DNA of 64,000 bases from assembly GCF_024498175.1 (NCBI RefSeq), contig NZ_CP101823.1:868001-932000 (forward strand), in the 5' to 3' direction. A model generated the notes under the pieces. The model saw only the letters and a program-made list of their open reading frames with translations, searched no databases and was not told where the DNA came from. The stretch comes from Haloplanus salinarum (GTDB lineage Archaea > Halobacteriota > Halobacteria > Halobacteriales > Haloferacaceae). Positions 12,008 to 30,188 of this stretch are shown here, piece after piece. Within the stretch, counting starts at the first letter, position 1; each line of letters begins with the position of its first letter. Position numbers and translations under genes: made by a program.

Positions 12008-12418
12008 ATGATCAGGCTGGGACTGGTGGTGGCGGAGTTCAACGCGTCCGTCACCGAACCGATGGCGGACGCGGCCCGGGACGCGGCCGCGACGGCCGAC
12101 GGGGACGTGGAAGTGACGACGGAGCTGTCGGTACCGGGGAGTTACGACACGCCGCTCGCGGCCGACCGACTGGCGCGCCGCGACGACGTCGACGCCGTGG
12201 CCGTCGTCGGCGCCATCGTCACCGGCGACACGGACCACGACCGGGTGATCGGCGACGCGACGGCGCGGGCGCTGACCCGCGTGAGCCTCGACCGCGACAC
12301 CCCGGTCACGTTCGGCGTGTCCGGGCCGGGGATGAGCGGCGCCGAGGCCCGGGAGCGCGTCGAGAAGGGAGCGGAAGCGGTAAACGCAGCCGTCGAGATG
12401 GTACGCACGTTACCATGA
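12008..12418 (+). CDS. ribH: 6,7-dimethyl-8-ribityllumazine synthase
   Basis: 136-aa lumazine synthase, which condenses 5-amino-6-ribitylaminouracil with 3,4-dihydroxybutanone 4-phosphate in riboflavin synthesis. Diagnostic segments are VVAEFNASVTEPM, VPGSYDTPLAADRLARRDDVDAV and VVGAIVTGDTDHDRVI (the GxxxxGxTxHxxxI-like active site with the catalytic His). Archaeal-length. ATG 12008 lies about 27 bp from a GACTTTGCC box, consistent with a leaderless mRNA. Its TGA overlaps the ATG of the aminotransferase (ATGA at 12415-12418), so the two are co-translated. No other rib gene is in the window. Confidence 0.93.
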   Translation: MIRLGLVVAEFNASVTEPMADAARDAAATADGDVEVTTELSVPGSYDTPLAADRLARRDDVDAVAVVGAIVTGDTDHDRVIGDATARALTRVSLDRDTPVTFGVSGPGMSGAEARERVEKGAEAVNAAVEMVRTLP

Positions 12419-13611
12419 TCGACTTCGACTTCGCCTCGCGCGTCGACCGCGTCGAGCCGAGTGCGACGCTCGCAATCAGCAACCTCGCGAACGAACTCGA
12501 GGCCGACGGGATCGACGTCGTCGACCTCTCGGTGGGCGAACCCGACTTCGACACGCCGGAGAACATCAAACGGGCCGCCGAGGACTCCCTCGCCGCCGGC
12601 GATACGGGCTACACCTCCTCGAACGGTATCCCCGAACTCCGCGAGGCAATCGCGGAGAAACTGCGAGCCGACGGGATCGACTGCGCGGCCGACAACGTGG
12701 TCGTCACGCCGGGCGGCAAGCAGGCGCTCTACGAGATCTTCCACACCCTGATCGACGGGGCTGACGGGCGAAGCCCGTCCGCTAGCGGGACGTCGTCCCG
12801 CACTGGCGACGAGGTGGTCCTCCTCGACCCCGCGTGGGTGTCCTACGAGGCGCAGGCGAAGATGGCCGGCGCCGACCTCTCGCGGGTCGACCTCTCGCCG
12901 TACGACTTCCAACTCGAACCCGCGCTCGACGACCTCGCCGAAACCGTCTCCGACGACACCGAACTGCTGGTCGTCAACTCGCCGTCGAACCCCACGGGCG
13001 CCGTCTACTCCGACGCCGCCCTCGAAGGGGTCCGCGACCTCGCGGTCGATCACGACGTCACGGTCATCTCCGACGAGATGTACGACGAGATCACGTACGG
13101 GGTCGAACAGACCAGCCTCGGCTCGCTCGACGGCATGGGCGAGCACACCATCACCGTCAACGGCTTCTCGAAGGCCTACGCGATGACGGGCTGGCGGCTC
13201 GGCTACTTCTGTGCGCCCGAGTCGTTCGTCTCGCAGGCCGGCAAGATCCAGTCGCACTCGGTGTCGTGTGCCGTCAACTTCGTCCAGCACGCGGGGATCG
13301 AAGCCCTGCGGAACACCGACGAGGCCGTCGGCGAGATGCGCGAGGCCTTCCGCGAGCGCCGCGACATGCTCGCCGACCTCTTCGCCGACCACGGCGTCGA
13401 CGTCCCCGTCGGCGACGGCGCCTTCTACATGATGCTCCCCGTCAGTGACGACGATCAGGCGTGGTGTGAGGGCGCCATCGAGGACGCCCACGTCGCTACG
13501 GTGCCCGGGAGCGCCTTCGGGACGCCCGGCTACGCCCGCCTCTCCTACGCGGCGAGCACGGAGCGCCTCCGCGAGGGCGTCGAGCGGCTGGCCGACGGCG
13601 GCTACATCTGA
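12415..13611 (+). CDS. Class I/II PLP-dependent aminotransferase carrying a 16-residue palindromic insert
   Basis: 398-aa fold-type-I aminotransferase of the AspC/AlaT kind. Visible landmarks are DLSVGEPDFDTP, GYTSSNGIPELREAI, NSPSNPTGAVYS (binding Asn), DEMYDEITYG (Asp/Tyr), NGFSKAYAMTGWRLGY (PLP Lys) and YARLSYA (substrate Arg). Substrate is unresolved; aspartate, an aromatic acid or N-succinyl-diaminopimelate are all possible. Odd feature: residues 115-130 (GADGRSPSASGTSSRT) interrupt the normally tight turn between the FHTLID helix and GDEVVLLDPAW. They are encoded by two perfect hairpins at 12757-12804. The frame is kept, so the protein is probably functional. Operon with ribH. Confidence 0.92.
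   Translation: MIDFDFASRVDRVEPSATLAISNLANELEADGIDVVDLSVGEPDFDTPENIKRAAEDSLAAGDTGYTSSNGIPELREAIAEKLRADGIDCAADNVVVTPGGKQALYEIFHTLIDGADGRSPSASGTSSRTGDEVVLLDPAWVSYEAQAKMAGADLSRVDLSPYDFQLEPALDDLAETVSDDTELLVVNSPSNPTGAVYSDAALEGVRDLAVDHDVTVISDEMYDEITYGVEQTSLGSLDGMGEHTITVNGFSKAYAMTGWRLGYFCAPESFVSQAGKIQSHSVSCAVNFVQHAGIEALRNTDEAVGEMREAFRERRDMLADLFADHGVDVPVGDGAFYMMLPVSDDDQAWCEGAIEDAHVATVPGSAFGTPGYARLSYAASTERLREGVERLADGGYI
12757..12804 (+). repeat. In-frame double-hairpin element inside the aminotransferase gene
   Basis: 48 bp, 16 codons. Hairpin 1: GACGGGC (12763-12769), loop GAA (12770-12772), GCCCGTC (12773-12779). Hairpin 2: GCGGGAC (12785-12791), loop GTC (12792-12794), GTCCCGC (12795-12801). Both stems are perfect. 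The same architecture, with different stem sequences, occurs in dapD at 29991-30038. Confidence 0.8.
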
Positions 13612-28063: not shown

Positions 28064-29313
28064 CGCTCTACCTCCAGTGCGGTGACGTCGGCGATGGTCT
28101 CTCGCTCGCGGGCGAGTCGCGTTCCGTCCCCGTCCCGAACGACCTCCGCGGGTCGGGGCCGGGAGTTGTACGTGCTCGCCATCTCGTAGCCGTAGGCGCC
28201 GGCGTTGCCGACCGCGAGCAGGTCACCCCGCCGCGGTGAGGGCATCGATCGCCCCTCACAGAACAGGTCGGCCGTCTCGCAGACCGGGCCGGCGACGGTG
28301 ACCGGTCGCTCCGGCCGGTCGTCGGTCAGGTTCCGGATGGCGTGGTAGGCGTCGTACATCGCCGGCCGGAGGAGCGTCGTCATGCCGGCGTCGACGCCGG
28401 CGACGACGGGAACCGCCCCCGTCGCGCCCGCGTCGTCGACCGGCTTCACCGTGTTCACCCGCGTCAGGAGGACGCCGGCGTCGGCGACGACGTAGCGGCC
28501 GGGTTCGACGGCCAACTGGGCGTCGACCGCGCCGAGTGCCTCCCGTGTCGCGTCGGCGACGGCGGGGAGGTCGAGCGGCGGTTCGTCCTCGCGGTAGGGG
28601 ACGCCGAAGCCGCCGCCGACGTCGACGAACTCCAGGTCGCCCACCTCGCGGGCGAGTTCGCCCATCCGGGCGACGAGTTCGCGGTGGGCCGACAGGTCCT
28701 CGCCGGAGATGCCGCTGCCGGCGTGCGCGTGGATGCCCACCACGTCGAAGTCGGCGCGGGCGTCGGCCACCACCTCGGCCGCGCGGTCGTAGGGGACGCC
28801 GAACTTGGCGTGGCCGCCCGTAGTCACCTTCTCGTGGTGGCCGGCGCCGACGCCGGGGTTCACCCGGACCGCCAACCGACCGTCGAAGCCGCGTTCCCGG
28901 AGTCGGTCGAGGGTGTCCCGCGCGCCGGCGACGACGGTCAGGTCGGCCCCCGCCCGCCAGCGGTCGACGACGACGTCCAGGTCCGCGGCCGGCGGGTTGA
29001 CCGCGGTGTACTGGATGGCCTCGAACCCGGCGTCGAGGGCGCGGACCACCTCACCCGCGGAGGCACACTCGGCGCCGAGTCCCGCCTCGCGGACGGCGTC
29101 GAGGACGGCCCGGCCGGTGTGGGCCTTCACCGCGTAGCGCACGTCGGCGTCGGGGAAGGCCGCGCGCAGGCGGGCGGCGTTCTCCCCCACCCGGTCGCGG
29201 TCGGTGACGTACAGCGGCGTGTCGTACTCGGCGGCCAGGTCCCGCAGGTCGGCGGCCGACCAGTCGGCGAGTCGTCGCACGGCGGGGCCGGTGTCGGCCG
29301 CCTCCCCGCTCAT
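28060..29313 (-). CDS. lysA: Diaminopimelate decarboxylase
   Basis: 417-aa PLP enzyme of fold type III that makes L-lysine from meso-diaminopimelate, the last step of the pathway. Landmarks: PLP lysine in VRYAVKAHTGRAVL, GLGAECASAGEV, HAHAGSGISG, VDVGGGFGVPY, EPGRYVVADAG (substrate Arg), and the second-subunit cysteine motif GPVCETADLF followed by NAGAYGYEMASTYNSRPRPAEV. Length is normal. ATG 29313 overlaps the dapD stop by 4 bp. Confidence 0.96.
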   Translation of the reverse strand: MSGEAADTGPAVRRLADWSAADLRDLAAEYDTPLYVTDRDRVGENAARLRAAFPDADVRYAVKAHTGRAVLDAVREAGLGAECASAGEVVRALDAGFEAIQYTAVNPPAADLDVVVDRWRAGADLTVVAGARDTLDRLRERGFDGRLAVRVNPGVGAGHHEKVTTGGHAKFGVPYDRAAEVVADARADFDVVGIHAHAGSGISGEDLSAHRELVARMGELAREVGDLEFVDVGGGFGVPYREDEPPLDLPAVADATREALGAVDAQLAVEPGRYVVADAGVLLTRVNTVKPVDDAGATGAVPVVAGVDAGMTTLLRPAMYDAYHAIRNLTDDRPERPVTVAGPVCETADLFCEGRSMPSPRRGDLLAVGNAGAYGYEMASTYNSRPRPAEVVRDGDGTRLARERETIADVTALEVER

Positions 29314-30188
29314 TCCCGGAGCGCCTCCTCGCGCCGCGTGGCGTCCCGTGTCTCCGCCTCGATGTCCATCGCGACGACGGCGGGCTTGTACGCGCCGCCG
29401 GCGAAGAGGTCGTGGTCGCCGATGGAGGACTCGACCATCCGGGTGAACGCCCGGCGCTCCGGGGGTAGACGGCCGTAGATGACCTCCTCCTCGACGAGGT
29501 CGTAGACGGGGATGCGCGGCGAGAGCAGCGTGTTCTCGCCGACGACCGTGTTCTCGCCGACGACGAAGCCGCTCGTGACCCGACAGCCGGCGCCGAGCGA
29601 GACGCCGTCCTCGACGATCACCGGCGCGTCCTCGACCGGCTCCAGTACCCCGCCGATCAGCGTGTTCGCGCCGAGTTTGACGTTCTCGCCGATCTGGGCA
29701 CACGAGCCGACGGTGTCACAGGAGTCGACGAGCGTCCCGTCGCCGACGTGTGCGCCCACGTTGACGAAGGAGGGACTCATCATGATGCAGTCGCTCCCGA
29801 GGTAGGCACCGCGGCGGATCGTCGTCCCATCGGGCGTGTTACGGGTGCCGCGTTCGCCCAGGTCGCCCGTCTCGCGCAGGGGGAGGACGTCGTGGTAGTC
29901 GACGCCGCCGTAGGAGCGGGCCTCGGTGGCCCGCAGGCCGAAGTTGAGCAGGATGCCCCGTTTGACCCACTCGTTTACCTCCCACTCGCCGTTCCCGGCC
30001 GACGGCCGGGAGCCAGCCGAGGTTCCCTCGGCGCTGCCGCGCTTCTCGGCGGCGCGGACCTCGCCCGCCTCCAGTGCGTCGAGGAAGGCATCGAGCGTGT
30101 CGTAGTCGTCGGCGGTCGCCGTCCCGGCGTCCACGTCGTCGTCGTCGTAGCGCTGCCACAGGTCGGATACGTCGGCTTGCAGTGTCAT
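29310..30188 (-). CDS. dapD: Tetrahydrodipicolinate N-succinyltransferase with a 16-residue palindromic insert
   Basis: 292-aa enzyme that succinylates tetrahydrodipicolinate using succinyl-CoA. Residues ~115-235 form a left-handed beta-helix of hexapeptide repeats (RRGAYLGSDCIMMSPSFVN, VGAHVGDGTLVDS, VGSCAQIGENVKLG). DapD hallmarks are the EWVKRGILLNFGL segment and the acyl-CoA-binding loop. Odd feature: residues 51-66 (GSAEGTSAGSRPSAGN) sit between AAEKR and GEWEVNEWVKRG, where I remember relatives having a short loop. They are encoded by two perfect hairpins, the same kind of insert as in the aminotransferase at 12415. ATG 30188 overlaps the dapB stop. Confidence 0.95.
   Translation of the reverse strand: MTLQADVSDLWQRYDDDDVDAGTATADDYDTLDAFLDALEAGEVRAAEKRGSAEGTSAGSRPSAGNGEWEVNEWVKRGILLNFGLRATEARSYGGVDYHDVLPLRETGDLGERGTRNTPDGTTIRRGAYLGSDCIMMSPSFVNVGAHVGDGTLVDSCDTVGSCAQIGENVKLGANTLIGGVLEPVEDAPVIVEDGVSLGAGCRVTSGFVVGENTVVGENTLLSPRIPVYDLVEEEVIYGRLPPERRAFTRMVESSIGDHDLFAGGAYKPAVVAMDIEAETRDATRREEALRE
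29991..30038 (-). repeat. In-frame double-hairpin element inside dapD
   Basis: 48 bp, 16 codons on the coding (minus) strand. Hairpin 1: GCCGAGG, loop GAA, CCTCGGC (30016-30032). Hairpin 2: TCCCGGCC, loop GTC, GGCCGGGA (29993-30011). Loops fall at insert codons 5-6 and 12-13, exactly as in the element at 12757-12804, while the stem bases differ. Confidence 0.8.

Follow-up and report, generated by a model that had tools for sequence, protein, structure and literature searches.

A family of 45-bp double-hairpin inserts in haloarchaeal genes that looks like tiny mobile coding DNA

Mitochondrial double-hairpin elements (DHE), present in Allomyces and others, consist of two adjacent hairpins, are mobile and are also found inserted in genes. 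Rickettsia palindromic elements (RPE) and the coding palindromes of Wolbachia are short palindromes that lie in frame in conserved genes, are translated and also occur between genes; RPE measure 105-146 bp and form one long stem-loop (PMC2229807). Methanocaldococcus jannaschii has palindromic repeats with coding potential that are fused in frame into protein genes, according to Suyama 2005 as cited in PMC2229807, and Haloquadratum carries the PATEs, IS605-related elements with palindromes, the shortest of about 52 bp, which make no target duplication (PMC3119063). Template switching is known to create hairpins and to restore or maintain their pairing (PMC8794818).

We analysed a 64-kb stretch of the Haloplanus salinarum genome (64,000 nucleotides, hereafter the window), for which a sequence-only reading had reported two perfect 7-bp stems with 3-nt loops inside each of two genes. 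Both pairs were found where they had been placed. They are the only perfect double 7-3-7 hairpins in the window with a spacer of 0-15 nt, and both spacers are exactly 5 nt; single 7-3-7 hairpins number 17. The features are as follows.

12415..13611, plus strand: class I aminotransferase gene, 398 aa (PF00155, 6e-61), host of copy 1
12760..12804, minus strand: copy 1, 45-bp in-frame insert of 15 codons, ADGRSPSASGTSSRT in the gene; family orientation opposite to the gene
12763..12779: copy 1 hairpin GACGGGC-GAA-GCCCGTC
12780..12784: copy 1 spacer CGCTA, 5 nt (family consensus in the same orientation, AGCCA)
12785..12801: copy 1 hairpin GCGGGAC-GTC-GTCCCGC
29310..30188, minus strand: dapD, tetrahydrodipicolinate N-succinyltransferase gene (PF14805 and hexapeptide repeats), host of copy 2
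29991..30035, minus strand: copy 2, 45-bp in-frame insert SAEGTSAGSRPSAGN, family orientation A
30016..30032, read on the minus strand: copy 2 hairpin H1, GCCGAGG-GAA-CCTCGGC
29994..30010, read on the minus strand: copy 2 hairpin H2, CCCGGCC-GTC-GGCCGGG
Spacer of copy 2: TGGCT, 5 nt

The reading frame of the aminotransferase is unbroken by its insert, as had been claimed, but against empty orthologues the net gain is 45 bp (15 codons) rather than the 48 bp first given, with an uncertainty of about 3 nt in the exact boundaries. The empty congener sequence reads GAC GCG GGC GAC, and the flanks in our genome are Haloplanus-like right to the edge of the insert. The expectation that orthologues would lack the inserted residues held for every Haloplanus congener in which the gene was found and for most haloarchaea, but not for all: among 191 genomes with a match, the site is filled in nine and carries a shortened or partly deleted insert in two (G088 and G110), scattered over several families. 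The loops differ freely between these orthologous copies. Alignment with the Thermus aspartate aminotransferase 1bkg places a gap precisely at copy 1, at the turn between 'FQAILD' and 'PGDEV'. An AlphaFold2 model of the protein with its insert retains the fold (pTM 0.84), and residues 117-129, one of its three segments at pLDDT<50, lie between a helix (101-114) and a strand (133-138); the model thus agrees with the earlier suggestion that the insert is tolerated in a surface loop.

The dapD insert is likewise real, and likewise of net 45 bp rather than 48 bp: the empty site reads CGG GGC GGC GAG and the filled site CGC GGC-(45 bp)-GGC GAG. The nearest named relative of this dapD is that of Haloplanus ruber (92%), which lacks the insert, as do seven congeners; among the other Haloplanus, G001 has an identical insert and G009 one that differs by 1 nt. 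Synonymous codons beside the insert differ among these three genomes. In G006 the insert (L374) has lost one hairpin (18 bp) and kept the frame. Overall the site is filled in 6 of 186 genomes with a match, scattered over several families, and insert-bearing species do not cluster in the dapD tree, in which the nodes are weak. A tract from a Halobiforma-like donor was considered and withdrawn, because most of the shared codons are also present in other Haloplanus. The same residues in distant genera had been named as an observation that would speak against a mobile insert; at both genes the inserts do extend beyond one genus, but patchily. Taken together, the insert and flank patterns at the two sites fit exchange at the same site through very short tracts, with rare moves elsewhere.

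We scanned other genomes with covariance models, as the sequence-only reading had proposed. The initial model (R1) was built from the two window copies and mixed both orientations, the aminotransferase copy being reversed; at E<=0.1 it had matches in 118 out of 195 Halobacteriales genomes. It was replaced by R2, built from 35 sequences after sorting by orientation. From 42 distinct orientation-sorted sequences, the family consensus is AGC [H1] TGGC(A/T) [H2] (G/A)AC, each hairpin being 7-3-7. With R2, our genome holds about 32 copies at E<1e-3, Haloplanus genomes hold 4-44 copies each, and 48 of 53 Halobacteriales genomes were positive at E<=0.01; E-values within the family reach 1e-16. Both window inserts are members of an order-wide family. 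Outside Halobacteriales, nine of 242 other archaea of the phylum gave marginal matches (best E 1.6e-4 to 0.009). Eleven such matches (best E 1.6e-4) fall in a single archaeon, G339, and perhaps belong to an unrelated repeat. A search of eight loci against Rfam returned nothing at gathering level; the only weaker matches, to sot0042 and HgcC, lie beside the tnpB of L179.

Membership in one family changes how the pair is to be read. Describing the two copies as twins of unrelated sequence was too strong, as both match the one consensus, and their shared GAA and GTC loops, pointed out earlier, are coincidental because the copy in the aminotransferase points the other way. The broader claim, that structure and frame are conserved and sequence is not, is borne out across the family.

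The unit has a simple arithmetic: H1 (17), spacer (5), H2 (17) and 6 more nucleotides make 45 bp, or 15 codons. Tandem model matches in our genome and three congeners are spaced at 45- or 90-bp steps. In an independent scan around 135 copies, extra hairpins peaked at -90, -68, -45, -23, +45, +67 and +112 from H1, as a lattice of 45-bp units would predict. Another type of 45-bp unit also exists in our genome (L182, L185, L189, L113); its hairpins are 8-3-8 and 6-3-6, it is coding (EGSEIPREAGKAGDG), and in several genes it adjoins the first type. Histidine kinases (L181, L184, L201 and congeners) carry tandem 15-residue units straight after the N box (NSVEHGST...; NSVEHGSTSSRTQSGD). In these arrays VEHG recurs at the unit borders, and the first hairpin arm falls on native N-box codons.

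Most located copies are coding, and both orientations occur inside genes. Hosts in our genome include MetRS, PheRS alpha, a zinc dehydrogenase, a CBS protein, a LonB-like AAA protein and several histidine kinases. In a first set of 55 distinct coding copies, every one read in frame 0 (41 of orientation A and 14 of orientation B); in a second set 36 of 38 were, and inspection returned one of the exceptions (L333) to frame 0. Thus 92 of 93 coding copies share one codon phase, the one-frame preference within open reading frames that had been proposed as a check; host frames were assigned from open length and third-position G+C, so that the coding strand may be wrong for a few copies, with the phase unaffected. 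The genuine +1 copy (L353, G009:C1:193032-195482) sits within a further unit, in the array of a histidine kinase. The phase may stem from selection, the frame being acidic, hydrophilic and stop-free, or from target preference, and the data do not separate the two. In our preferred reading the elements are translated as flexible hydrophilic loops.

The stems are kept while their sequences change. In the R2 alignment 99.8% of cells are paired against a shuffled mean of 76%, and double changes occur in 13 of the 14 pairs, figures biased by the picking of loci for pairing. In a set where G-U was accepted as a pair, 58 of the 76 elements are perfect. At the orthologous sites of both the aminotransferase and dapD there are compensated stem differences, alongside some broken pairs.

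On balance, we think it probable that both inserts belong to a haloarchaeal 45-bp family of non-autonomous palindromic coding elements, acting at the DNA level and spread by short-tract recombination or template switching. A copy would reach a new or orthologous site by short-tract recombination or by microhomology template switching, having no transposase of its own. Microhomology template switching is the spreading route we would prefer, although flank likeness gives that step no direct support. Quasipalindrome template switching, that is hairpin-templated repair, would re-match the arms after mutation, so that the shape outlives the sequence. Units could be gained in tandem and removed by hairpin slippage, each step preserving the frame, and the elements would be tolerated as near-neutral. 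More tentatively, the family may be transposase-free selfish coding DNA that enters and leaves genes by replication template switching alone, in one codon phase, homing at the same sites across haloarchaeal families through very short tracts, with arms that are self-templated rather than selected; this stronger version we regard as possible but doubtful.

The main rival takes them for minimal elements of PATE or IS605 type whose movement depends on a Y1 (TnpA/IS200) transposase acting in trans, which reads the hairpins as single-stranded DNA and excises them seamlessly. Two hairpins near the ends and the lack of target duplication suit it, as do the 52-bp terminal-only PATEs of Haloquadratum (PMC3119063). 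It also gains from a double hairpin found 58-190 nt behind some tnpB genes of IS1341 type. An IS1341-type tnpB element of 1474 bp occurs in three near-identical copies in our genome (L177-L179; G000:C1:856919-858068, about 10 kb before the window), one with a broken tnpB, and its double hairpin lies 58 nt past the tnpB stop codon. However, no such double hairpin was found downstream of the other readable tnpB loci of our genome; the element therefore seems to ride certain IS rather than to be their end. The idea that it is an integral part of TnpB omega-RNA was rejected since most of our tnpB loci are without it. Nor does the presence of elements track Y1_Tnp (PF01797; counts 75/43/40/37, Fisher p=0.14): no PF01797 match turned up in 43 of the 118 genomes with elements, where mobilisation may lie in the past, and a Y1 transposase as obligatory partner was rejected. 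Flank comparison gave no target duplication, the net gain being 45 bp, and target-site duplication was rejected, left and right flanks at most positions resembling each other no better within copies than between them. A flank consensus GAC RGC ... GAC GGC was seen but is part of the unit itself; the flanks showed no clearly conserved target tetranucleotide, and the stems vary freely. We consider Y1-driven movement unlikely, though a serious contender.

Selection on the transcript would explain perfect covarying stems in transcribed genes, the hairpins then serving as regulatory structures, an RNase site or a translational-bypass element. Such selection should tolerate G-U, yet the 23 non-Watson-Crick cells of the 76-element set comprise 5 G-U, 10 A-C and 8 others; G-U is not favoured over A-C, and RNA-level selection is therefore disfavoured. 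The same counts divide the earlier proposal of a mobile or structure-generated coding element spread through RNA or DNA hairpins: a dispersed coding palindrome it is, but spread at the RNA level fits poorly. The occurrence of both orientations in genes and the patchiness at orthologous sites also speak against an RNA function, and the near-fixed codon phase and stop-free inserts point to plain translation and disfavour bypass. We judge an RNA function improbable, and equally so selection for a linker motif at the peptide level with palindromes as a by-product of codon bias. The hydrophilic, Ser/Gly/Asp/Glu-rich peptides in nearly one frame, and the arrays immediately behind the histidine kinase N box, are what a linker would look like; against this, the same DNA consensus in reverse orientation gives a different peptide, structure is kept in intergenic and IS-borne copies, and paired positions co-change. 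Chance hairpins in G+C-rich coding DNA are scarcely credible. At 70% G+C single 7-3-7 hairpins are indeed common, with 126 in 400 kb of G013 besides those of the window (a spacer histogram from the same 400 kb had too few doubles, and its sampled stretches missed known copies). Chance would not, however, yield the E-values obtained, the 45-bp arrays or the empty sites, and the haloarchaeal genomes G092, G110 and G116 have no R2 match at E<=0.01, so a haloarchaeal composition is not by itself enough to generate the element. Double hairpins at chance level, the outcome that had been named as refuting the proposal, were thus not observed. DNA-level spread by short-tract recombination or template switching is the reading we retain.

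The family looks like undescribed tiny mobile coding DNA whose shape is kept while its sequence changes. Its roughly 75 distinct copies, with empty and half-deleted orthologous sites, make it a natural system for asking whether DNA template switching is enough by itself to build perfect hairpins, correct them and take them out again. Many of the unusual 15-residue loops and linker arrays of haloarchaeal proteins, notably after the histidine kinase N box, may be DNA elements and not protein adaptations. Our search of the open-access literature found no description of the family; subscription papers lay outside that search, and priority is not proven by it. The sequence-only reading knew of no haloarchaeal equivalent, which stands only in part, as archaeal equivalents are partly known in the Methanocaldococcus coding palindromes and the Haloquadratum PATEs.

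PATEs are the nearest described haloarchaeal elements. Their near-terminal palindromes are related to IS605 ends, whereas the present family has no Y1 transposase link and its copies are mostly in-frame and coding. As for the M. jannaschii repeats, a scan of the phylum with the haloarchaeal model gave only marginal matches outside Halobacteriales. Two adjacent hairpins with divergent stems, the mark of DHE, are found in the haloarchaeal family too, a likeness we expect to be convergent; to our knowledge DHE have no fixed 45-bp unit or codon phase. Clusters of short intergenic palindromes recall REP/BIME, and in G136 the family does form intergenic clusters of this kind (L153-L157), with three to four hairpins each and conserved blocks of about 126 bp in common. 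Unlike the mostly coding family, REPs are seldom in genes and share common sequence motifs (PMC12306157, PMC3733652), and the family consensus has no GTAG/CGTC-type REP tag. Nematomorpha mitochondria resemble the family in having perfect inverted repeats inside functional coding genes, but theirs reach 284 bp, with arms that encode conserved residues and are not inserts (PMC6649704). The parallel with RPE, drawn from the sequence at the outset, serves well as an analogy. By description, the family shares with RPE the in-frame insertion into conserved genes but not the size or the single stem: its unit is 45 bp with two 7-3-7 hairpins, compensated stems, tandem arrays and an archaeal host. If our reading is correct, these elements would be a widespread archaeal counterpart of the coding palindromes of Rickettsia: most Halobacteriales carry them, with up to about 40 copies in a genome, and essential enzymes (MetRS, PheRS and DapD) are among their hosts.
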